NCBI GenBank assembly: GCA_015039365.1
Contig: WION01000046.1
Coordinates: 124,001 to 188,000 of the forward strand
Direction of reading: 5' to 3'
Length of the DNA: 64,000 nucleotides
DNA from: Amanita rubescens
Taxonomy: Eukaryota > Basidiomycota > Agaricomycetes > Agaricales > Amanitaceae
Under the pieces are notes generated by a model. It did no database searches and was not told the origin of the DNA. It saw only the letters and a program-made list of their open reading frames with translations. The stretch's first letter is position 1. The number at the start of each line of letters is the position of its first letter. Shown piece by piece: positions 23,464 through 61,225 of this stretch. The position numbers and the translations under genes are program-made.

Positions 23464-26400
23464 CTATTGATTTGGTTCAAAAGCAATGCGGCTCAAACGA
23501 AAAAATATGCCTACGTCATGTACGCGTTTTCGTTTTTGAGACACCTGGTGTGGTTTATGGGATATGGGATGTGGGATATATTAGTTATCAAAAGGCGGTT
23601 AGTAGAATGCGCACTTTACTATCGGGTGTCGACGAAGGCGGCAATTCTTCTCGCAAACTTTCATCGTCAGCATTGATTTGGGGAGATACAAATTGCGACA
23701 TCGCTATCATGCTTTCCACAACGTTATTCATTCTTGGCCGACTCAACGGTTCCCTCACCCAGCAGCGCCGAATTACGTTCCACGCTCCATCGCTCAGAGG
23801 CTGCTCGTCTAGCCGAGGTGGAAGTACCCCTCGAGAGACGAGGGTCAAGATCTGCAAGTCCGTTTTTCCGGCAAAAGGTATACTATCATAGTAGATCTAC
23901 TAGACAAGTCAACATCGAAGAAAGATCGGCATATTTGTCATGACGCACTTCATAAAAAAGGCATCCAAACGCGTATACATCCGACATTTGCGTTCTGGGC
24001 GATGGGTCGTCGGATGGATCGTCGTCATCCCCGGAGATTCCGAATAACTCTGGGGCGGCAAAGTTCAGATGTAGTGCTCCCGATCTCGTATTTGTAGCTT
24101 CTGAGAGTCGAGTCAAACCAAAGTCAGCGATCTGGACATGAAAATTATCGTCCAAGAGAACATTCTCCTGGAGCAAAGAGTCAGCGTCGTAACATAGTGC
24201 GTCTGAGGTAGAATACCCCGCGAAGATCTCCATGAAATGCGCCTTCTGAGTGGATGTATTCCATGGCTTGCGCGACTTCCAGTATCTTCGGAGATTTATC
24301 ATTTAGACGTAGAATAAAAACAAGAAATAGGTGAACATACGCGTTCTTCAATAACGGCTATTGGTGGATTTGCTTGTTTCCGCCATCTGGCTAGAGTACC
24401 GTTCTTCATATATGGCGAAACGAGAAAAAATTGTGGTTCTGTTGTGTTTGTGATTTCATGGATCCCTAAAAACGGCAGCACGAACTTGTGCTTGAGAGAT
24501 CGCCACATCAATGCCTCTCGGCAGAAGGCCTGTTGGTCTCCGAATCAGCAACACTTATAACAATGACGCAAAGAGACATACTACTTGGTTGTCGCACTTG
24601 TACAACACTTTCAATGCAACAGCTTTTCCCCGTCGTTTGCCCTTGAAAACGCGCCCAAACCCGCCGCCGCCAATATAATCGCGCTCGGATGGTATGGTGA
24701 CTCCAGTCACAATCAAGGACGGTGGAACGATAGGCATCCTTGAGATAACTTTGAGGATAAATCGTCGTGCTCGCCGTGTAATATCTGCAGTGGTAGCGTC
24801 CTGGATTGATGCACGATGATTAAGAAGATCAAGTATGAAATCCAGCAGTTTACTGGCATCCAAGGGATCATCTATTCGAGTCACAAGGTTGACATAGTCC
24901 TCTCGAGATAGAATCTCGCACATGAGGTCGACGATTATTGCACCTAAAGCAGTGGGATATAAACGCTAGTACTGGTTCTTAAGTGTAGTACATTGCAGGT
25001 CTGAGATGACGCACCTCCATATCTCGACCCTGGAGTATATACGATAGCAATGGAAGGGCGTAGCTGTCAGGATCACATGGCATATTCAATGATGGCACAA
25101 TGTGCGTCTTCGAGAAAAATTCTAACATAAATTGTCTTCCTCGCCGATTCATGTCCACTGTGGAAGAATGCTGATTTAAGATAAGATCGTACTCGAGCAT
25201 TGCCAGTAAGAAATCCAACAGATTCTCGGCATCAGAGGCTCGGTCTAGCTGTGCCACGGTGTTGATGTAATCTTCCCTGGATAGAATGTGGTACCAAAGG
25301 TCGGTCACCAGTGGGTGTACGATATCATTTACCACGACCCACTATTACTACTTTTTAGAGTCATTTCCGGATTAGAAGTGTCACGCACCGGCGAATGATA
25401 GCAGAGGATGTAGAGGAACAATGGAAAAGCATAATCTTCAAGATCGTCTAGATTGGGTGGCGGTTCAATGTATGTCTTTGACATGATTTTCAACACGAAC
25501 AGTCTTGCTCGCTGGTTCGCGTCTGCGTCTTCAAAATCCTCGAAAAACATAATATGATCCGAGTCAAGTACGAAATCCAACAGATTTGTTGCGTCAGCCG
25601 GCGTGGTATGGTCCAGCTGTGCCACAAAATCTGCGCAGTCTTCCAAGGATAGAATGTCGTACATAAGTGCGGGCAGCACCTCGTCTATAACGTGAGGCGA
25701 GATATGAGATGACCGCTGCCAGCTCTTAGGAGCGTTTATCCCAATTTGAAATATTACGCACCTTCTTAGCATCGCCAAGAATAGAGATGATCAAATGGAA
25801 AGTATTGCTATCATCCGGTATGTTAGAGTTGGACGATGGTAAACCTTGGATCCCCGCGATTACTTCCAGTATAAATCGTGTTCCCCGTCGCTTCAAGCCT
25901 GCAGAACCGTAAACATAAGAATAATTTATGCGGTGTATAAACACCAATGGATCCCAGGCCCCTGAGTCATGGTGTAGCCCTGCCGCGAAATTGATGTAGC
26001 CTTCTCTTGATAGAATCCCGTCCATAAGGTTCACAACACCTACCACCAATTCGCTTCTTAAACGACCACAGTCAAGCTATTGACTCTTAAGAAGAATGTA
26101 TCTCGTGTTTCAAATGCTGCGCACCTCCCGACTGTTAAGTATATAGAGAAGAGATTCAAGCATACTGCAGTAAAAGTCATACGGCATGTTGGATGGCGGC
26201 TCGCCACGCATTTTTGAGATAACTGCCGACATAAATTGTCCCGCCCGTTGTTTCATGGCAGGATCGCGATTTGATAAAGAGTAACAACCAAACATATGCA
26301 TTATGAATTTCAACAAGTTTATGGCGTCCGATAATTGATTCACTTGTGAGGCGAGGGTGATGTAGTCCTCCCTGAATAGGATCTCGCTCACAAGGCCGAT

Positions 26401-26926
26401 TGTCATTCCGTTAGCAATGGACGTAACGGGAGGTTCGGGCTATTGGCTCTTAAGCATAATGTGTTCCAGTTTGATATGTTGCGCACCTTATTCTTGAGTA
26501 TAGTGAGGAGTAATGGGAGTGTGTAGCCGACAGGATCATGCGGTATATTGCACAGTGGGACATCATGCGTCCTCGAGATAACTGCCAGCACAAATCGTCT
26601 TGCTCGTCGGTTCATGTCCACGATGGCCGGATCCTGATTTGATAAGGAATAATTGTGAAGCCAGTGCGGTATGAAATCTAACAAATTCTCGGCATCCGAA
26701 TCGTGGTCTAGCTGCGCAGCGAGGTTGATGTAGTTTTCCCCAGATAGAATCTTGTGCATGAGGTTGACCGTCAATGGGCATAGAAGAGATTTAGACTGTC
26801 GGACCTTGGGTAGATACGCTCAGAGGTTGAAATATGATCGCGCACCTTCCTAATGCTGAGTGTAAAGAGAAGCAACGGGAAGGTATCGTCACCGACATCT
26901 TGCGATACCATGCTGTACCCTTCCAT
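23464..26926 (-). CDS. Module-array TKL kinase A, 965 aa model, intact
   Basis: Twelve exons: 26926-26846, 26795-26487, 26439-26125, 26076-25762, 25715-25389, 25341-25015, 24965-24582, 24529-24341, 24285-24217, 24167-23949, 23896-23615, 23544-23464. Every exon is a multiple of three with GT-AG ends. Residues 1-27 are a leader starting MEGYSM. Then come five modules of 103-109 residues. A typical motif is ILSREDYIN, then SDAENLLDF, RRARRF, and a Leu-rich end. A sixth module leads at about 620 into the kinase. The loop is GGGGFGRVF, VALK Lys about 677, FHGD Asp 769, DFG Asp 787, and APELFG follows. The C-lobe has VIRRCWVREP. The tail exon contains SQKRKRVHDVG, a possible nuclear signal. Substrate unknown. 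The last intron is the least certain. Confidence 0.75.
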
Positions 26927-34614: not shown

Positions 34615-36570
34615 TCAGAAAGCAACGCAGTTCAAACGAAAAAAAAAGCCTACATAATGTACGCGTGTTCGTCTTTGAGAGGCCTGGTGTCGTGTATAGG
34701 ATATATTAGTTAGCAAAATGTGGTTAGTAGAAAACGCCAATTTGCGCACTGTACTGTCGGGTATCGATGATTCTTCTCGCTGACTTGCATTGTCAGTATT
34801 GATTTTGGGAGACACAGATTGGGACATCGCTATCATCATTTCCACGACGTTATTCATTCTTGGTCGTTTCAATGGTTCCCTCACCCAGCAGCGCTGAATC
34901 GCATCCCATGCTTCATCGCTCAGAGACTGCTCGTCTAGCCGGGGTGGAAGTACCCCTGAGAGATGAGGGTCAAAATATGGATGTCTAATTTTCCAGCAAA
35001 AGGTATACTATCATAGTAAATCTAGACAAGTCAGCATTAAAGGAGGATCAGCATAATTGTTATGACCCACCTCATAAAAAAGGCATCCAAACGCGTAGAC
35101 ATCCGACATTTGCGTTCTGGGAGGTGGGTCGTCGGGCGGATTGTCGTCATCCTCACAGATTCCGAATAACTCTGGGGCGGCAAAGTTCAAATGTAGCGCT
35201 CCCGATTTCGTATTTGTAGCTTCAGAGAGTCGAGTTAAACCAAAGTCAGCTATTTGGACATGGAAATTATCATCCAAGAGAACGTTCTCCTGGATAAAAG
35301 AGTCAGCATTGTAACATATGTATCTGATGTAGATTAGTACCCCGCGGAGATCGCCATGAACTGTGCCTTCTGAATGGATGTATTCCATGGCTTGCGCGAC
35401 TTCTAGTAGCTTCCGAGCGTTAGACGTAAAATGAAAATAAGAAATGGGTGAAAGCATACGCGTTCTTCAATAACGGCTATTGGTCGATCTGCTTGTTTCC
35501 TCCATTGGGCTAGAGTACCGTTCTTCATATATGGCGAAACGAGGAAAAACTGGGGTACTGTTATATTTCTGATTTCATGGATCCCTAAAAACGGTAGTAC
35601 GAACTTGTGCTTGAGGGATCGCCAGATCAATGCCTCTCGGCAGAAGGCCTGTTTGTCTCCGAATCACCAATAACTCATAACAATGATACAAAGAGACGTA
35701 CAACTTGGTTCTCAGACTTGTACAACACTTTCAGTGCAACAACCTTTCCCCGTAGTTTGCCCTTGAAAACGTGCCCAAACCCCCCGCCACCAATATAATC
35801 ACGATTGGCTGGTATTCTGACTTTAGTCACAATCAAGGACGGTGGAATGATAGGTATCTTTGAGATAAGTTTGAGCATAAATCTTCGTGCTCGTCGCGAA
35901 AAATCCACAATGGTGGAGTCGTGACTTGATACGCGATGATTAAGAAGCATATCGAGTATGAAATCCAACAGTTGACTAGCATCCGAGGGATCATCTATCC
36001 GAGTCACGAAGTCGACGTAGTCCTCTCGGGATAGAATCTCGCACACGCGGTCGACAGTGATTGTTGCGCCTAACAAGGAAGAGCCCGGAACTGACATGGT
36101 TAAGGCGGTAGTTTGCGTGCTGGGGAATCCAGAGGGGTCGAACGGAGAGGCTGCTTGCAACGTGTGAGAGCCCAGTGGCAAGGATGGAGCATAGGTATTG
36201 TTGGGGATCTTGGTGGTTGCTCCGTGAGGGGTAGTGACGATGATGGTGTATAGATCGAGAGGATCGGAGGAAATGTCGATTCTGTAGCCGACGGGGAGGA
36301 AAGTGTTGAAACCCTGAATAAGATTGGGGTTGCCATGAAAAAGGCGCGAAACGCGCTGTATAACCCCTAGAGTGTCGATGCTGGAGCGAAGTAAAGAGAG
36401 GCAAAAAAGGGTGAACAGACAAGAACGCACACTTCACGCTTAAAGTCATTCATTGTGTCGAGAAACTGTTGGTAGACCTCTGGCTTGTCCCGGAACTGGG
36501 CATTGACGGCGTCTAGATAGCTGAGGGCGTCTGTGACGTTGAGGGGCCTTGCAGTGGGGACCTTGAGCAT
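34615..36570 (-). pseudogene. Sin3 PAH1-TKL kinase chimera, one frameshift in the C-lobe
   Basis: Exon 1 (36570-36431) and exon 2 (36380-35702) join at a phase-2 GT-AG intron of 50 nt, and together they are exactly 273 codons. Exon 1 carries VTDALSYLDAVNAQFRDKP and [12 protein letters not shown]. Exon 2 continues [30 protein letters not shown] and [10 protein letters not shown], which is the paired amphipathic helix 1 domain of the Sin3 corepressor. The same exon then runs into [19 protein letters not shown] and the module-kinase, so the fusion is inside one exon (near 36,070). VALK, VHGDLRG and IADFGLT are present. In exon 11 one base is missing near 34,956 relative to kinase A, giving a stop at 34,936-34,938. 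A SQRRTRVHYVG tail remains downstream. The five upstream modules are absent. Confidence 0.8.
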
Positions 36571-36769
36571 TTCGGCGTCGTGGGTGGTGGGAGAGGGCGG
36601 TGTAATTTACCGTATGTAGCGCCAACTTACTTCAATAGGACCTAACTGAGTTTGAAACGTGTTTAACTGTAAACCTAACTGCTTTTAGCTCCAGGATATG
36701 CAGTGCAAGAACCGTCACTTGTGTCCGAGCGTCGAATTGACTCTCGTCTGCGCCCTGTTGTTGTTAGTA

Positions 36770-36777
36770 GAGTCAGA
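36770..36777 (+). other. 8-bp target site duplication, left
   Basis: GAGTCAGA directly precedes the left inverted repeat of the 14.2-kb element. The same octamer follows the right end at 50972-50979. Confidence 0.8.
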
Positions 36778-36865
36778 CAGATAGGGAGCACTTAGCAAAC
36801 GGCTCCAAACGGTAACCGCCTACCACTAAAAAATGGGTACAGCCGGCGGGCCTTTTGTCACATGA
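36778..36865 (+). repeat. Left terminal inverted repeat
   Basis: Starts CAGATAGGGAGCACTTAGCA and ends near GTCACATGA. It is complementary to 50877-50971 except for an 8-base gap and scattered changes. Confidence 0.8.
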
Positions 36866-36879
36866 CCATAAAACACGTC

Positions 36880-37990
36880 TCATACCAAAGGTGTATGTTC
36901 GGTGACTGATGCACTATAGCTGAGGATAGCAGATAATGGTAAGCTGTACACCAAAGCTAGAAGGCTTGAGTAAGTCTTGCATAGGCTTGAGCATGGTGAC
37001 GGACACACCGTCTCGGCGCATGGTGAGTCTCACACCAAAAGCATATGTTTAGTGACTGACACACCATAGCTAAGGATAGTGGGTGATGGTGAGCCGTACA
37101 CCGAAACCAGAAGGCTTGAGTATGGTGACAGACACACCATAGCTGAGGATAGCGAGTGATGGTGAGCTGTACACCAAAGCCAGAATGGTGACGGACGCGC
37201 CATCTCGGTGCTTGGTGAGTCTCACACCAAAAGCATATGTTCAGTGACTGACGCACCAGTATGGTGACAGACACACCATCTCGGCGTGTGGTAGTCTCGT
37301 ACCAAAAGGATATGTTCAGTGACTGACACACCATAGCTAAGGATAGTGGGTGATGGTGAGATGTACACCAAAGCCAGAATGGTGACGGACGCGCCATCTC
37401 GGCGCTTGGTGAGTCTCACACCAAAAGCATATGTTCAGTGACTGACACACCGTAGCTAAAGATGGCAGGTAGACTGACGCACCATAGCTGAGGATAGCGG
37501 GTGATGGTGAGCTATATACCAAAACCAGAAGGCTTGATATGGTGACAGACGCACCATCTCGGTGTGTGGTGAGTCTCTCACCAAAAGCATATGTTCAGTG
37601 ATTGACATGCCATAGCTGATGATAGTGGGTGATGGTGAACTGTACACCAAAACCAGAAGGCTCGAGTATGGGCCGCTGACAGACACACCATCTCGGCGCG
37701 TGCCAGTGAGTCTTGCACCAAAAGCATATGTTCAGTGATTGACGCACCAAAGCTGAGGATAGCGGGTGATGATGGTGAACTGTACACGAAACCAGAAGGG
37801 TTGAGTATGGTGATGGACGCACCATCTCGGCATTTAGTGAGTCTCACACCAAAAGCATATGTTCAGTGACTGACGCACCATAACTAAGGATAGCGGGTGA
37901 TGGTGAGCTGTACACCGAAACCAGAAGGGTTGAGTATGGTGACGGACACGCCGTCTCGGCATGGACACTCTACAGTGAATGATAGTATGC
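36880..37990. repeat. Left subterminal minisatellite
   Basis: Seven or so copies of a variable unit of about 75-190 bp (commonly 120-160) marked by AAAAGCATATGTTCAGTGA, CACCATCTCGGCG, CACCATAGCTGAGGATAG and AGCTGTACACCAAA. No coding evidence; the frames seen through it are repeat translations. Confidence 0.9.
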
Positions 37991-38037: not shown

Positions 38038-41000
38038 CTATACTATATCTAGCATCCGTCTAATGATTAACCTGTTCCACATAGAAATAAAAATTTTCGT
38101 GTACAAGATTGCCCGTTCCTGTGTCATGTAGCTAACTGACTTCCGAATACGAGCAATTCCTCCATTTCCACACTCAGCTGCACTTGAGTTGATTCTGCCT
38201 AGACGAGGATCCACGGCAGCATAAGTTTTCAAGAATGATGCTGGAGAGCATTTTGTATGTCCTTTAGCGTGAAAATCGTCTACAACAAATAGTGTATCTG
38301 CGAAAAAATCTGGTTTGCGAGTTAGACAGTAGGGTGCGAGTGCACAAGCAAAGTCATAGATAACGCGCTTCGGTGCTCTAGGCCAACGCGTAATCATGGC
38401 AGAAAAGACATCGTTACGACCTTCTGCACTCGGAATGCAATGGAAGCCGTAGCAAATGCTATGCGTGCACCACACACACATAATGCCACCTGTCAAACGC
38501 TTCTGACTGTATGTAGAATAATATTTTGAACACTTCCCACCACGCTGAGATGTGTCGGTGTTCGTGTTGTCCTTTAACCATGGGTACTTTGGCCTATGTC
38601 TTATCTGTGGCATGCTGTAGCAACAACCAGTCTGATTGCCATAGTGAGTATACTACAGCTGATTCTTCAGATGTTCAGGCTTACTCGTCTCCAATCCTTA
38701 TCTGTTGCATCAATGTCTGTATCGATGTCTGGCGTAGAATGAATGGCGAGGGCCGTGAGCACATTATTGGTCCGTTCTACCAACCACCGGCACATCCCCA
38801 GTAAGTCCGGAGGATAAGTTTGTGCTCTCTTTTCTTCGAGACGGAGGACGTTGTAAAGCGCAGGTATGACTACGAGCATTGAAGCGTTTTCCTTTGTTGG
38901 CTGGTCCACGAAGCCCGAGAGAACCTCAAGTGCAGATCTAGTCACGATTTGCAACATTGAATCATCGGATGTTATCTATCTGTTCGTTAGATCATATGTT
39001 TGCCGCATGCATTAATATCCAATCCGTACTTGTACAAACAGACTTGCATATTCTTTGCACAATGAGGTGCCGGCATTTATAGCTGCCAAGCTGATACGAG
39101 AATAGAAGCAGGCGGCGAGAGAGTCGTTAACAAGTTTTAATAACCCAAGTGATTTGAAGACAAGTTCAATCAGGCTCGCCGTATCGTGGGCAACCTTTTC
39201 TACAATGCCTACTGTGCTCATGGTGCTCCCCTCAGTCCCGGGATTACGGGCAAAATTGGGGGCCTGAGTCTCCGACGTGGACACTGTGGACATAGTAGAA
39301 GCTGCCGCCAATATAGTACGCATAGCACGACGGAGGTCTGAGTCTGCGATTGGTGCTTGTACGTGATAACGGGAGCCACGGATAAGAGATTTTTCATGAA
39401 CGGTTGTTGGGGGAGTCAGGGAGGGCAATAAATGTTTGCAGTGGAAAGATAGGGAGACACCATCCCATATGACGTCGTCTGGCGTGGGTCCACACTTTGG
39501 GCACTTCATATCACCATCTAGATGCATCAAGGCACTATAGGAGAACCAAGCGTTACGAAAGACAGCTTCGTGAGGAAAGGGCAATAGAGAGCCATAGCAC
39601 AAGTAACGTTTTCGCATCACACTAACCCACGCTGAAAATGGTGTCTCAGATGAAGTGAAATTCGCCGTCTAATCATCTAGCAGATCGTGCGTGAAAAGTA
39701 TAGAGTTGTTCAGGTTGAACAAGCCCAGTTGTAGCCCATCCGGACCAATGAAGCGGCGGAGAAGGGGAGGACACTCCCGACAAAGCTGAACTTCCAACAG
39801 TGCCTGCTGAGCCCCAACAAGAGTGTATACTACACACTCCCGAAGCGCCGTTTGATCCAACAATTGTCGCGTACTTCCACATGTGCAACGTGCTCCATTG
39901 TCCATGCTGATCGTCCCTGGTACTTGAAGGACTGGGTGGGCTCGTTTGTGAGCATTTAGAGAGTCTCCAGGAAGCGACGCCCAAATCGGTGGTGGGACAG
40001 GCAGGTGCGATACGGAAATCATGTTGTTTCTAGCTGATTGTCCACCAACTGGCGAGCAGTCGTCTAGTACACCAAACTTTAGCACGGGAAAAGAAGTTCA
40101 TTTGACAAAAGAACATACCAGGTGCCATTTGCGAGTCAGCGGAAGGGTCACGGGCACTTGGGTCCCGTTGAATTAGTTTCTGTAGGTAATGTCGAGCTTT
40201 TGTGACGTGACTACACCCATCATCGCCGTCTCTGCTGCACCGCCACATACCAGCACCGCTGTCTTGTCCATGGTGGTACACCACGCATCGGTACTTTACG
40301 GCTTGCTGACCTCCAATTGAAACAGAAAACAAGTTGGTTGATGAGTCTTCAACCAACTCCCGTGCAAACAGAACAATATCCAGATCTGCATCAATGGCTA
40401 CTGAGGGAAGAACAGTCATGTAAGTTGATTCGATAAGTAAGATCAAGCCTTGAACACTCACGTGAATCAATTGAAGGGAAATAGAGTTCGCCGTACTCAT
40501 GCAGGAAGCATGTATGGACACAACCATTTTTGCCATTGGGACAGAAACAGACAACGACTGTCTGATGGCCAAATGTCTCGCGTTGGAGGTGGAACCAAGA
40601 ATCCTATGAGAAAAGCATTGAGAATCCTCACTAATCCATCTTTTACAGGTATAACTAACCGTTGCTATCAGCGCTCGGGCGTCCCAGCCCTGAACGATGA
40701 ATAAGTTGGGATTTAAAAGGTAAATTCCCGCAATATCAGCTGTAACTGATTCCACATATTCTTGATAGCCGTGCGGGTGCTCCTGCGGGCCTTTGTCTTT
40801 GTCTGAAGCATCTGAGCTCGGAGGATACCAGGCGGTGGCAGCCATATCGGTGAATGGCTCGACATCTACCTCCTGTGGTGCGCCAATCGATTCGACATCC
40901 ACCGCGTGGCATTGCGCAGTGTCCAAGATATCGTTCCGAGCTTTCTTGAGCTTTTTTGAGTGAGCAGCGTAAGCCCTTGGCCGTTTTTGTGGAGACGACA

Positions 41001-52617: not shown

Positions 52618-55600
52618 TCAGGAAAGTAACACAGCTGGACGGAAATATATGCCTACGTCTTGTACACGTTTTCGTTTTTGACAGGCCTGGTGTGGTGATG
52701 AGATATATTAGTTTCAAAACTTGCTTGGTAGAAAGCGCCAATCTACTCACAATACTATCGCGTAATGATGAAGACGGCGATTCCTCTCGCAGATTTGCAT
52801 CGATTTGGGGAGACACAGATTGCGACATCGCTATCATGCTTTCCACGACATTATTCATTCTCGACCGTTTCAATGGTTCCCTCACCCAGCAGCGCTGAAT
52901 CACGTCCCACGCTCCATCGCTCAGAGGCTGCTCGACTAACCGAGGTGGTCGAACGCCTTGAGAGACGAGGAACAATATCTGCAATTCTGATTTACCAGCA
53001 AAAGGAATATTATCATAATGGATCTTGAAAGAAATTAGCTCGAAGGATATCAGCATGTCTATTGTGACGCACCTCATAATAAAGACATCCAAAAGCGTAG
53101 ACGTCTGACATTTGAGTTCGGGAAGGAGTGTCATCGGATGGACCTTCGCCATCCTCTAACTGTCCAAATAACTCTGGGGCGGCAAAGTTCAGATGTAGCG
53201 CTCCTGATCTCGTATTTGTAGCTTCTGAGAGTCGAGTCAAACCAAAGTCGGCGATTTGGACACGAAAATTATCATCCAAGAGAACATTCTCCTGGAGAGA
53301 AGAGTCAGATTGTAACGTAGTGTGCATGAGGTACAATACCCCGCGGAGATCGCCATGAACTGCGCCTTCTGAATGGATGTATTCCATGGCTCGCGCGACC
53401 TCCAGTATCTTCCAAGTATTAGACATAGAATGAAAGTAAGAAACACGTGAAGGCGTACACGTTCTTCAATAATGGCTATTGGTGGATTTGCTTGTTTCCG
53501 CCACCGGGCTAGAGTACCGTTTTTCATATATGGCGAAACAAGGAAAAATTGCGGTATTGTTGTGTCTTTGATTTCATGGATTCCTAAGAACGGTAGTATG
53601 AACTTGTGGTTGAGGGATCGCCACATCAATGCCTCTCTGCAGAAGGCCTGTGGATCTTTCGCGTCAGCAACCATATTATAACAATAACTCAAAAACATAC
53701 AACTTGGTTATCAGACTTGTACAGGACTTTCAGTGCAACGACTTCTCCCTGTCGTTCGCCCTTGAAAACGCGCCCAAAACCGCCGCCGCCAATGAAATCA
53801 CGATTGGCCGGTATGCTGACTCCAGTCACGGTCAAGGACGGTGGAATGATCGGTATCTTTGAGATAACTTTGAGCATAAATCGTCGTGCTCGCCGGGTAA
53901 TATCGATAGTGGTGTCGGAGTGACTTGATACGCGATAATTAAGTAGCATATCAAGTATGAGATCCAACAAATCACTGGCATCAGAGGGATTATCTATCCG
54001 AGTCACAAGGTCGACGTAATCCTCGCGGGATAGAATCTCGCACACGAGGTCGACAATTGTTGCACCTAACGCAGTGGGAGATAAATCCTATTGCCAATTG
54101 GTTCTTAAGTGTATACATTGCAGGTCTGAAATGGCGCACCTTCATATCTCGATCCTTGAGTATATACGATAGCAATGGAAGGGCGTAGCTGTCAGGATCA
54201 TATGGCGTATCCAATGACGGCACAACGTTCATCTTTGAGAAAACTTCCAAGATAAATCGTCTTCCTCGCCACTTCATGTCCACTGTGGAAGAATGCTGAT
54301 TTGAGAAGAGGGCATCGCACTCGAGCATTGTCAGTAAGAAATCCAACAGACTCTTGGCGTCAGAGGCTTCGTCTAGCTGTGCAACGGGATTGATATAATC
54401 TTCCCTGGATAGAATGTGGTACAAAAGGTCAGTCACCACTGGGTGTACGATATCATCCAGCCACTATTACTACATTTTAGGGAGTTATTCCAGCTTTGAA
54501 GTGTTACGCACCAACAAATGATGGTTGATGATGTAGAGGAGCAATGGAAACGAATGATTTTCAGGATCATCCGGATCGGGCAGGGGTTCAACGTATGTCT
54601 TTGACATGATTTTCAACAGGAACAGTCTTGCTCGCTGGTTCATGGCGTTGCCGAAATCCCTATTAAAAATAAAACCAAGTGTGAAATCTAACAGTTTTGT
54701 GGCATCTGTGGCATGGTCAAGCTGCGCCACGATGTCTACGTAGTCCTCCTGGGACAGGATCTCGTATATCAAGTCCCTAAGTGTGCCGTCCACATCTACA
54801 GGCGCGAAGAAAGGTGTCGGCTACCAGCTTTTAGTAGGTGAGCGTAACTCAATTTGAAATATTGCGCACCTCTTCAGAGTTGAGTATAGCGATGATCAAT
54901 TGGAAAATCTTGCTGTGAGGAATATACGGCGTGCTGGGCAATGATATACCTTGAGACTTTACGGCCACTTCCAATATAAATCGGTTTGCTCGTCCTTTCC
55001 AGTCTTCACCTACGGCCCGGGTATGATAATCAAGCCTTCGCAATATCATGTCCAACAGAAACTCGGCCTCTGAGTCATGTCGTAGCTCTGCCTCGGAATA
55101 GATGTCTAAAATCTCACTCATAAGATTTACTGCCAATTTGTTTGTCGCACGAGGATATCCAAGCTATTGGCCCTTAAACGAATGCAACCAGTTTTTGAAA
55201 AGCTGCGCACCTCCACATTGTTAAGTATATAGAAGAGAGACGAGAGCATATTGCTGCGACAATCGTACGGTACGTTGGACTGTAGTTCGCCACACATTTT
55301 TGAGATAACTGCCTGCACGAATCGTCTCGTCCGTCGGTTCATGTCCATGAGGGAAGAATCGCGACTTGACAAAGAGTGATCAGTATGCAGGAATTCCAAC
55401 AGATTCATAGAGTCCGAGTATTGATTTATCTGTGCGGCGAGGATGACGTAGTCCTCCCTGGACAGAATAATCTCGCTCAAAAGGTCCGTCATTATTTTCC
55501 TCACGCGGGATTTGGGCTATTGGCTCATAAGAATGGTTCGTTCCAGTTTGAAACGTTGCGTACCTTCTCACTGCTGAGTATAGAGAGGAGTAAAGGGAGC

Positions 55601-56018
55601 ATATAGTTGTCAGGATCATACGGTATTTTGGACAGTGGGACATCATGCATCCTTGAGATAGTTGCCAACATGAATCGTCTTGCCCGTCGCTTCATGTCTA
55701 CGTTGGCCAGAAACTGATTAGATAAGGAATGATGTTGAAGCCAACACCGTATGAAACCTGACAAATTCTCGGCATCCGAAATGTCGTCTAGTTGCGCCGC
55801 GAGGTTAATGTAGTGTTCCCTAGATAAAATCTCCTTCATGAGGTTGAACGTCGATGCGCATAAAAGAGATTCAGACTATTGGACCTTGGGTGAATACACT
55901 CCGAGTTTGGAATGCGATCACGTACGTTCTTATTGCGGATCCGGAGTGTAGAGAGTAGCAACTGGAAGGTGTCACCGCTGCCAACATCTTGCGATACCGT
56001 CATGTTGTACCCTTCCAT
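52618..56018 (-). CDS. Module-array TKL kinase D, 947 aa model, intact
   Basis: Twelve exons: 56018-55926, 55875-55564, 55516-55211, 55163-54870, 54820-54512, 54463-54140, 54087-53701, 53647-53459, 53408-53340, 53291-53073, 53023-52751, 52686-52618. All are multiples of three and GT-AG (948 codons). The leader MEGYNMTVSQDVG is followed by five modules of 98-108 residues, the kinase-linked module, and a kinase with VALK Lys about 666, VHGD Asp 758 and DFG Asp 776. FAAPELFG, MSDVYAFGCLYYE and VIQRCWVREP follow. The tail has CQKRKRVQDVG. It is the closest intact relative of kinase A, and module for module the two align. No signal peptide or membrane helix, so a cytoplasmic or nuclear site is likely. 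Confidence 0.75.
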
Positions 56019-57776: not shown

Positions 57777-60700
57777 TAGTGACAGTGACTTCGTTTACTA
57801 AGCATCCCGACTCGAGCGAAAAGAGTGCCTACGCGTTTTACTCGTTTTCGTTTCTGGGAGGTGTGGTGTGGTGTATTAGATATAAGAGACTTGAAACGGC
57901 GCCAGTGACTCGCAAAATGAAAGGCTCACCGTTGACCCGGGAGGCTGATAGACAATCAAAAACGTTGCTAGTGAAATCGTTAAACGGCCCGCGCACCATA
58001 GCACTGGATGTTGACGAGGGTAATGGTGATGCTCGCGGCGTCTCTGGATAGATACTACTTCCGGGAGACCCATACCGTGACATAGCCATCATGCTTTCCA
58101 CGACATCCTGCATTGTTGGCCGCTCCGACGGTTCCTTCGCCATACACCGCTGAATCACGTCCCATGTCTCTTCACTCAATGGATGCTCTTCTAGCCGAGG
58201 TGAAAGTACACCTCGAGAGACGAGAGTCCGTAAATCCGATTTACCGGCTTGAAAAGGTACTGCACTATCAAAGCGTATCTAGGCAATTCAGCAAGTGTAT
58301 CATTGTGTTTTATATTAGTAGTATGACATACTTCATGATAAAGATGTCCAAATGCACTGACATCCGACATTTGAGTGTCATCGCATGAACCTTCGGCATC
58401 CTCTGACTGTCCAAATAACACTAGGGTTGCATTGAAAAATTGAGATGTAGCGCTCCAGATCGGATATTTGTACCTTCTGTGAATCCAAAGTCAGCGATTT
58501 GCGCATGAAGATCGTCATCTAAGAGGACATTCCCCTGAGGAGAAGTGTCAGGATTGCAACATCGTGTGCTTAATGTAGAATACCCCGTGGAGATCTCCAT
58601 GAACTACGCCTTCAGAATGAATGTATTCCATGGCTTGTGCAACTTCAAACATCTTCCGTCAATGCCTTGGTTAGACTAAAGAAAAGGAAGAACAAGGTGA
58701 AGGCCTACCCGTTCTTCAAGCTGGGCTACCGGCGGATTTGCTTCCGTCCTCCACCGGGATAGAGTACCATTCTTCATGTACGGAGAAACGAGGCAGAATT
58801 GTGGTTCTTCTGGGTCTTCGATTTTATGGACACCTAAAAACGGTAGTACGAACTTGTGCTTGAGAGATCGCCACATCAATGCCTCATGGCAGAACTCCTG
58901 TCACGACTCTACAACCACGCGACAACGATAACATGATGAGGAGACGTACCCCTTTGTCACCAGACCCGCGTAGCACTTTCAGTGCGACAACTCCGCCGTG
59001 TAGTTTGCCCTTGAAAACACGGCCACAAGAACCGCTACCAACGTAATCACGCTCGGCCGGTATTTTGACACCAGTCACGATCAAAGAGGGCGGTATGACA
59101 GGCGTTTTTGAGATGACTTTAAGCATAAACCGTCTTGCACGCCAGGAAATATCCACAGTAGAGTCCCGATACGATGGGGAATGATTATAAAGCATATCGA
59201 GTAAGAGATCCAATAATCTCTTGGCCCTCGATGGTTTGTTTATCAACGTGGCGAATTTGACGTAGTCTTCCCTAGATAAAATCTCGCTTACGAGGTTGAC
59301 CGTCACTGGATTCGCAACGAGTGACGCTGATCCTTGGTCGAGTAAAAAGAGAAGAAATGGAAACGCGCCGCTTTGAGCAAGGTATCGATGATTGGACAGC
59401 GGTATACCGCGCCACAATTTGGATACGACGATTTCCAAGATAAGCCGTCTCGCTCGTCGGGCGATATCAACAGCGTCTGGACCCGGGTTCGACTTGGATG
59501 CGAAATGGGTAAGTAGATTAAGCATCGAATTCAATAAAGCTTCGGCATCGGAAGTATGGTCTAGCCGTGCTACTAGGCTGACGTGGTCGTCCCTTAATAG
59601 CATCTTGCGCACAAGGTCGGTCAACAACTTGAACAAGTCTTCGCTAGGTGATCCAGGCTAATGATGTCTCTTTGGAAGCAGAGCGAATTCAGTGTTTAAT
59701 ACATTGCGCACCTTCTTACTATTGTTGAGGAAATACAGGAGCAATGGGAGGATATAGCTGTCGGGATCGCGTGGTATGAGGCTGGGCAGTCGTACACCCT
59801 GCGTCTTTGAGATAAGTTCCAGCATAAATCGTTGGGCTCGTCGCTTCTTGTCCGTGGAAGCGGAAAAATCCCGTCCTGATGAGGAGTAACCATAGAGCAT
59901 ATACGGTATGAACTCCAAGAGCTTCTCGGTCTTTGATTCACGGTTTAGCCGTGCTGCGAGATCGATGCAGTCGTCCTTTGATAGAATTTCGCTCATAAGG
60001 TCGACCGTTAGCGAATTTGCCTCAATAGGTGATCCAGGCTGTCCGGGATTTTAAGCAGAGTGCATTTTGTGTTTGGAATAGATCGTACCTCCTTGTTGTT
60101 GAGCATATAGAGGAGCAGTTGAAGCGCATTGGCGTGAGGGTCGTACATCATGGATGGTGGTTCACCGTTCATCTTCGAGATGACTGCCAACATAAATTGT
60201 CTTGCTCGTCTGTTCACGTCTACGGTGGTTGGTGAGGGATAATAACGAAGTATACGCGGTGTGAAATTCAATAGATTCTTGGCGTCCGAGACTTGATTTA
60301 TCTGTCCAGCGAGGGTAATGTAGTCCTCCCTCGATAGAATCTCGTTCATAAGCTCGGTCGCCAATGCGTTAGATGATTCGCGCTAATGGCTCCTAAGCAC
60401 CAGAGTACAATCTGTATTTGAAAACCGCGCACCTCCTTATTGTTAAGTACATGTAGAAGCAGTAGGAGCGTGCCATACGGAACATTGGATGGTGGTTCAC
60501 CGTGCATCTTTTCGATCAATCTCAACATAAATCGTTTTGCTCGTCTGTTCATGTCTATGGTGAAAGAACCGTAGTCCGATAACTCGGAATAATAATGAAG
60601 CACATGCGGTATGAAATCTAACAGATTCTTGGCGTTCGAGGTTTGATCTACTTGCGCGACGAGGGCGGTGTGGTCTTCCCTGGATAGAATTTCGGTCATA

Positions 60701-61225
60701 AGGTTGATTGTCATTTTGTTTACAAGGGACGTAATGGGAGGTTTGGGCTGTTAGCTCTTCAGTAAGGCACGTTCTGGTTTTAAATGCGGCGCACCTTATT
60801 GTTGAGTATAGAGAGGAGTAATGGGAAGATATAGCTGTCAGGATCATACGGAATGAGGGACAGCGGGAGGCCATGCCTCCTTGAGATAACCGCCAGCATA
60901 AATCGTCTTGCTCGCCTCTTCATGTCTACGATGTCTGGATCCTGATTTGATTGGGAATAATAATGAAGGAAATGATATATGAAATCCACTAGATTTTCGG
61001 CATCTGAGGCGTGGTCCAGCCGCGCCGCAATGTTGATGTAGTGTTCCCTGGATAGAATCTCGTTCATGAGGTTGATGGTCAATGCGCTTAGAAGAAATTC
61101 GGACTATTGCCCTTGAGTAGAGTGAATTCCGGGTCTAAAATATCGTTGCGCACCTTCTTAATGCTGAGCGTAAAAAGGAGAAAAGGAAAGGTATCATCTC
61201 CGGTCGCAGCAACTGCATGCGACAT
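57777..61225 (-). pseudogene. Module-array TKL kinase E, degraded catalytic region
   Basis: Leader from ATG 61225 (MSHAVAATGDDTF). Modules lie near 61.08, 60.71, 60.36, 60.00 and 59.64 kb, then the kinase-linked module. Here module 5 and the kinase-linked module share one exon (59636 region to about 58950) with no intron between LLFLLDQG and NPVTVNLVSEILS. The loop VGSGSCGRVF and VALK remain. The activation segment is ruined: after IADFGF about five residues are missing, the AAPELFG region is lost and a TAG follows near 58,426. A tail with QKRKRVKRVG is still visible at 57,850. Confidence 0.75.

Follow-up and report, generated by a model that had tools for sequence, protein, structure and literature searches.

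The window analysed here is a 64,000-nucleotide stretch of the Amanita rubescens genome (positions 124001-188000 of contig C396, in an assembly of 75.7 Mb and 786 contigs). Between 36570 and 34750 its minus strand carries a spliced gene that reads in frame from the PAH1 domain of the Sin3 corepressor into a TKL kinase. The exon borders given below are predicted from reading frame, GT-AG sites and homology; coordinates without a contig name are those of the window.

36571..36597, minus strand: Sin3-derived start 5' of the ATG, coding in Sin3; an internal Sin3 Met stands at the start of the fusion
36431..36570, minus strand: exon 1, start codon and first half of PAH1, from Sin3 (frame, Pfam, Sin3 alignment)
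36381..36430, minus strand: intron 1, 50 nt, positioned as the Sin3 intron and similar to it in sequence
36104..36380, minus strand: Sin3 portion of exon 2, second half of PAH1 and the Sin3 linker as far as QTTA (Sin3 alignment)
36074..36096, minus strand: 23-nt piece that matches Sin3 on contig C24 at 22 of 23 positions, about 400 bp further downstream, after PAH2 (VSLPGSSL)
36073..36074, minus strand: fusion junction; the kinase side opens with a former TTAG splice acceptor, now read as codons
35702..36073, minus strand: kinase portion of exon 2, one helical module, glycine loop and VALK (frame, Pfam, module count)
35460..35648, minus strand: exon 3, N-lobe
35341..35409, minus strand: exon 4, HGDL catalytic loop
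35071..35289, minus strand: exon 5, ADFG, APEL and SDVYAFG
34750..35021, minus strand: exon 6, C-lobe; the window copy loses its frame near 34,956

Exons 1 and 2 together comprise 140 + 679 = 819 nt, or 273 codons, and contain no stop codon. In the spliced N-terminal stretch of 336 residues, Pfam recognises PAH at residues 31-75 (PF02671, 5.4e-19) as well as PK_Tyr_Ser-Thr (PF07714, 3.9e-8); the frame 35466-35011 matches PF07714 once more, while the frame 35007-34615 matched no Pfam family; the three frames scanned gave PAH and kinase families only, and Sin3_corepress (PF08295) was absent from them. An earlier, sequence-only reading of this DNA had proposed an in-frame PAH1-TKL chimera, and the stop-free codons with Pfam domains on both sides bear it out. 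It had also seen no splice site at the junction near 36,070, and the joint at 36074|36073 is indeed read as codons. The window copy has the kinase motifs VALK, HGDL and ADFG, and its reading ends after residue 460 at a stop at about 34937-34935, inside the C-lobe, which is left incomplete, in agreement with the break near 34,956 that the same reading had described.

The identical junction is found on four contigs, C396 (the window), C266, C5 and C147, each of which carries the kinase array, with a kinase order that is broadly collinear as read from the places of the matches. Over 4.3 kb the copies on C396 and C266 agree at 99.79% of positions, and these two contigs may be one haplotype assembled twice; the C5 copy is 95.6% identical to the window copy over 3.8 kb, and the C147 copy matches it in pieces at 85-87%. 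The lesion near 34,956 is common to C396 and C266 and absent in C5 and C147. The C147 copy is broken in its own way, being without the ATP-binding stretch; the C5 copy is open for 544 aa (566 aa if the last intron is kept) and has the glycine loop, VALK, HGDL, ADFG, APEL and RPRM. The proposal that the gene is dead or mis-sequenced was therefore too simple: the allele in the window is broken, but the same lesion stands on two contigs, and the allelic C5 copy is open. A genome-wide PAH inventory returned only the Sin3 gene on C24, a second Sin3-like gene (C161/C374/C599) and the four fusion copies, with one PAH per copy. That the chimera is an assembly misjoin or a gene-model artefact is very improbable: the near identity of C396 and C266 would allow it, but the same junction is borne by the diverged C5 and C147, and PAH occurs nowhere in the inventory outside the Sin3 genes and these copies. 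Among the 30 protein matches listed (287-913 aa, about half of them labelled by species) none carried the label A. rubescens, so an annotated PAH-kinase of that size was not seen for the species.

The Sin3 part of the fusion matches the C24 gene at 85.6% identity over 381 bp that include the intron, and at 81.7% over 71 more bp; the 85.6% match is far beyond chance. The C24 gene encodes three PAH domains and Sin3_corepress (PF08295, 4e-35), PAH1 of A. rubescens Sin3 can be aligned along 96 residues to yeast SIN3 chains of solved structure, and in a PAH1 tree the fusion PAH1 stands beside A. rubescens Sin3. The parental gene presumed by the sequence-only reading could thus be found and aligned, with the donor type on C24 and the junction placed to the base. 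That reading had left the choice between unequal exchange and capture; since the inventory shows PAH only in Sin3-type genes and at the four fusions themselves, an unequal exchange between members of the array is rejected as the source of PAH1, and capture of C24-type Sin3 DNA stands. A retrocopy is likewise rejected, because the donor intron is retained, and the Sin3 stretch was therefore copied as DNA. Similarity to Sin3 begins at about 36597, some 26 nt 5' of the fusion ATG; the match over 36571..36597 is marginal when taken alone (score 27 against a shuffled maximum of 28) and is collinear with the strong match that follows it. Since the captured piece starts inside Sin3 coding sequence, the Sin3 promoter was not carried along, and of the "promoter-proximal Sin3 exon" proposed earlier the exon holds and the promoter does not. 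When 36571-36763 was searched in the genome for the origin of the promoter, the matches were the four fusion copies only.

Silent divergence from C24 is uneven (dS 0.79-0.85 in exon 1 and 0.29-0.33 in exon 2), and the fusion intron differs from the C24 intron by few changes. An unsampled Sin3 allele or later conversion may have been involved; C24 may thus not be the exact donor, and the constrained branch described below may partly predate the capture. A short PAH-like frame was seen by eye at C24:586636-586330 (L009, approximate); it runs into a stop shortly before the PAH1 exon of Sin3 and was not among the PF02671 matches of the genome search.

The sequence upstream of the fusion has features of its own. 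At 36775-36876 lies a repeat, parts of which match 18 other places in the genome; it is found upstream of the C396 and C266 copies only, and for the C5 and C147 copies the match to the upstream query starts only at base 114 of that query. Its absence at C5 and C147 speaks against this repeat as a transposon that carried the Sin3 DNA. Also upstream are a likely remnant of a KDZ (Kyakuja-Dileera-Zisupton) transposase and a CxC4 cysteine cluster (38041-38652 and 39015-39668, minus strand), for which the transposase scores 19.7 bits, below its cut-off of 26.6, and CxC4 35.1 bits, above its cut-off of 26.9. Between the fusion and this remnant, a degenerate minisatellite (37061-37962; overlapping rows with periods of 37-160 bp) aligns with C266 in shifted registers.

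The kinase side of the joint is best understood by comparison with four neighbouring genes in the window.

23618..26804, minus strand: TKL kinase with 5 module matches; its last module is identical to that of the annotated protein P0140
29175..32376, minus strand: TKL kinase with 6 modules, one of them split over two matches
52754..55875, minus strand: TKL kinase with 5 module matches
58009..61103, minus strand: TKL kinase with 6 module matches

Homology to the closest neighbours begins at 36073/36074, and the Sin3-derived sequence ends at 36074. In the neighbours TTAG precedes the exon of the last module, and the same bases are codons in the fusion; P0140, an annotated neighbour protein, is spliced at the equivalent point and reads GSRYG-GAIIVDL. 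The old acceptor may still be used in some fusion transcripts. The gene at 23618..26804 is the closest kinase relative of the fusion in the kinase tree described below. By tblastn, modules of about 85 aa number 5, 6, 5 and 6 in the four neighbours, the kinase-proximal one included, and the fusion retains one. The earlier count of five replaced regulatory modules is thus about right if the kinase-proximal module is included in the count. In a low-confidence structure model of P0140 (mean pLDDT 62) the last module, with blocks of 66-91, consists of four helices. The 23-nt piece at the joint, which in Sin3 follows PAH2, suggests that the captured stretch once included PAH2, since lost; a PAH2 query matched Sin3 genes only, and a PAH2 relic was absent from the kinase array. 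The simplest history that accommodates these alignments seems to be capture of PAH1, PAH2 and linker, joining at the acceptor and a later loss of PAH2; the 23 nt may instead have been captured separately.

We compared the selection recorded in the two parts of the gene. The omega of PAH1 is 0.15-0.23 between fusion and Sin3 and 0.75-1.55 among the fusion copies. When parsimony is used to place the changes, 21 silent and 9 replacement ones fall on the branch that separates Sin3 from the fusions (p 1.7e-7 against the neutral ratio) and 4 silent and 18 replacement ones on the tips of the fusion copies, the latter in keeping with the neutral ratio (p 0.62); the contrast between branch and tips has a Fisher p of 0.0003, with nine ambiguous sites (six three-state, three with 2:2 splits) excluded. 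At 54 conserved PAH1 positions (each at least 90%), 6 are altered in C396, 6 in C5, 7 in C147 and 1 in the donor-type Sin3 on C24, whose sole departure is common to it and the fusion copies; across 123 non-fusion rows the median number of departures is 0 and the 90th percentile 6. One of the departures in the open C5 copy is a proline in LIQGF. These comparisons suggest that PAH1 was constrained at first, perhaps partly before the capture, and is now relaxed or diversifying. In the kinase part, omega is 0.25-0.29 for the window and C5 copies against three neighbour genes and 0.25-0.31 between neighbours; for the window copy against the C5 copy it is 0.64, a value that comes from few changes (10 replacement, 5 silent).

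With two of the three distinct copies broken and PAH1 drifting, part of the species is probably losing the gene. This raises the question of whether it is a chance chimera without lasting function, in which accidental Sin3 DNA was caught up in frequent recombination of the array and the product has been decaying ever since. The broken copies, the neutral ratio of PAH1 changes between copies, the kinase omega between window and C5, and the altered conserved positions are all as such decay would have it, but a copy that is open with every kinase motif looked for, the constraint on the branch to Sin3, a kinase omega against neighbours that resembles that between neighbours, and the similar fusions in other orders described next are not. 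We regard a purely accidental and decaying chimera as possible but somewhat doubtful.

Homologue searches, which covered proteins of 0.55-1.75 times the query length, found further PAH-kinases. With fusion residues 1-145 as query, one of 30 matches also bears a kinase (P0020, from Suillus lakei), and with the Sin3 part of the Suillus protein as query at least seven carry PAH and kinase among the 120 matches listed of 153, the query included. These proteins, whose domains were rescanned, are P0020 (Suillus), P0033 (Tulasnella), P0036, P0037, P0046 and P0051 (Rhizoctonia solani) and P0092 (Ceratobasidium). The four R. solani proteins, of which P0036 and P0037 are 99% identical, keep two PAH domains each. 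The kinase match of P0020 begins after the glycine loop and the kinase domains of P0033, P0036 and P0051 are partial, so that some of these gene models may be incomplete. The Suillus protein P0020 also has a post-PAH2 piece of Sin3 (57 residues, 35%, E 1.6e-5 without composition correction and 0.005 in a short-query run).

A PAH1 tree was built from 39 of 42 rows named by hand out of 131 domain-bearing ones (P0013, P0018 and P0021 failed the domain filter). In it, with a bootstrap that had not settled, the fusions stand beside the Sin3 of their own lineage in Amanita (96/74), Tulasnella (99/97) and Ceratobasidiaceae (99/94), and Suillus is unplaced. The tests reject a single clade of all nine fusion rows (p 8e-18) and a clade of the Tulasnella and Ceratobasidiaceae fusions (p 0.006), but not a clade of Amanita and Suillus (p 0.12). 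The Sin3 references P0044 (Ceratobasidium) and P0056 (Tulasnella) are partial or short records and could be fusion fragments, in which case the split between the Tulasnella and Ceratobasidium fusions is weaker. The kinase tree is a quick one of 44 hand-picked rows (119 of 255 proteins had near-full kinase domains), in which long branches that meet were flagged and the P0036 row fills 37% of the columns. It rejects one clade of the eight fusion rows (p 1e-51), makes the C5 copy sister to the neighbour P0140 (97) inside the Amanita rows (100), and leaves the Suillus, Tulasnella and Ceratobasidiaceae fusion rows in a group without resolved branching. Together the trees point to at least two origins of PAH1-kinase fusions, and probably three or four. 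Recurrent Sin3-TKL fusion thus looks like a pattern in Agaricomycetes; we found no Sin3/PAH-TKL fusion described in the open-licence PMC literature. That one pairing was gained in parallel is not easily put down to accident alone, which suggests that there can be an advantage in tethering a TKL kinase to partners of Sin3 or in using PAH1 as a bait. PAH pieces of Sin3 were also seen joined to other proteins, in P0059 (Blastosporella) and P0029, with an aldo/keto reductase and an F-box protein as partners; if these joins are not gene-model errors, fragments with PAH1 also reach partners other than kinases.

The PAH1 fold has four helices and a cleft in which amphipathic helices of repressors are bound, and a PAH1-kinase would thus be expected to compete with Sin3. 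In the account that we favour, a Sin3 stretch (PAH1 with its intron, probably also PAH2 and the following linker) would have been copied as DNA into a tandem array of TKL kinases and joined to a kinase gene at the 3' splice acceptor that precedes the last module, displacing four or five upstream modules. The product would be a PAH1-linker-module-kinase protein, whose PAH1 docks on amphipathic helices of nuclear regulators, so that the kinase is brought to, or tied down at, the partners of Sin3. There it would compete with Sin3-HDAC and could phosphorylate or recruit. We infer for this protein expression, binding by PAH1, kinase activity and a nuclear site, and we hold capture into the array with PAH1 as a dock on Sin3 partners tentatively, as not quite an even proposition.

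The kinase family offers another way to read the same protein. If these kinases are immune-like, PAH1 could serve as an integrated bait that mimics the nuclear target of foreign effectors or viral proteins, binding of which triggers the kinase. As in an integrated decoy, the fused domain comes from a host protein, the Sin3 on C24. In Arabidopsis, At4g12020 combines PAH, NLR, kinase and WRKY parts in one protein. One survey lists PAH among the NLR-integrated domains of Arabidopsis and maize, and gives At4G12020 as an NLR-kinase and, separately, an NLR-kinase-WRKY fusion (PMC4759884); other papers describe kinase-fusion proteins with a proposed integrated decoy that confer rust resistance in wheat (PMC10260397) and integrated decoys proposed in NLRs of Sordariales (PMC12258605). 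Kinase number varies between the array contigs, as read from match places, and many replacement changes among copies are also expected of a bait. Other captures by the family fit as well: at least 13 TKL relatives bear other, non-kinase Pfam domains in a precomputed column among the 120 matches listed of 1164 (P0145, P0148, P0177, P0179, P0182, P0184, P0185, P0188, P0198, P0225, P0231, P0237 and P0243). When nine of these proteins were scanned again, the domains that passed the cut-off were HMG box, WD40, GTPase (two), NPHP3_N, C2H2, Zn2Cys6 and homeodomain; the CNH of P0243 lay at the cut-off, and the septin and NACHT labels fell short of it. Against a bait, no foreign ligand is known, the share of replacement changes in PAH1 is no more than neutral (p 0.62), and the open-licence PMC literature yielded no tie of these fungal kinases to defence; we consider this role unlikely. 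P0184, from A. rubescens itself, is a TKL kinase whose C-terminus bears three HMG-box stretches.

A wider idea, which we also rate as rather improbable, is that PAH1 has been recruited again and again as a bait or docking head, and that nuclear domains (PAH1, HMG, homeodomain, zinc fingers) are taken up by TKL kinases in Agaricomycetes in the way that immune receptors of plants carry integrated decoys. If it were true, the Amanita locus would show one such capture within one genome, together with its donor gene, its breakpoint and alleles that are dying. Whichever role applies, one assembly here gives a domain capture with its donor gene, a base-level junction and both open and broken copies, and connects the locus with Sin3-TKL fusions that arose in parallel in other orders. 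What the large TKL arrays of mushrooms do, so far little explained, thereby becomes testable.

Several known systems resemble this gene in part. It shares PAH1, an intron site and the flanking linker with A. rubescens Sin3, a member of the corepressor family of yeast SIN3, Pst1 and Sin3A/B, but it is without PAH2, PAH3 and Sin3_corepress (PF08295) and ends in a kinase. Expanded TKL kinases are reported for Laccaria in PMC2838846, and fungal kinases related to them in PMC3937382; like the expanded TKLs of Agaricomycetes, the fusion has the kinase domain, the kinase-proximal module and a place in a tandem array, and it is nested among Amanita TKLs, but its upstream modules are replaced by a Sin3 fragment. 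The PAH-kinases of Rhizoctonia, Ceratobasidium, Tulasnella and Suillus likewise have a Sin3-type PAH1 N-terminal to a TKL kinase, and that of Suillus shares with Amanita both PAH1 and a post-PAH2 piece of Sin3; they differ in belonging to other kinase lineages, with an origin separate from at least the Amanita fusion. Wheat kinase-fusion resistance proteins such as Sr43 (PMC10260397) also join a kinase to an unrelated domain, but in a plant, with other domains and with a defence role shown in wheat. The Amanita gene is, by this comparison, a fungal TKL kinase with an exchanged N-terminal domain, to which the recurrence of the same exchange adds interest.
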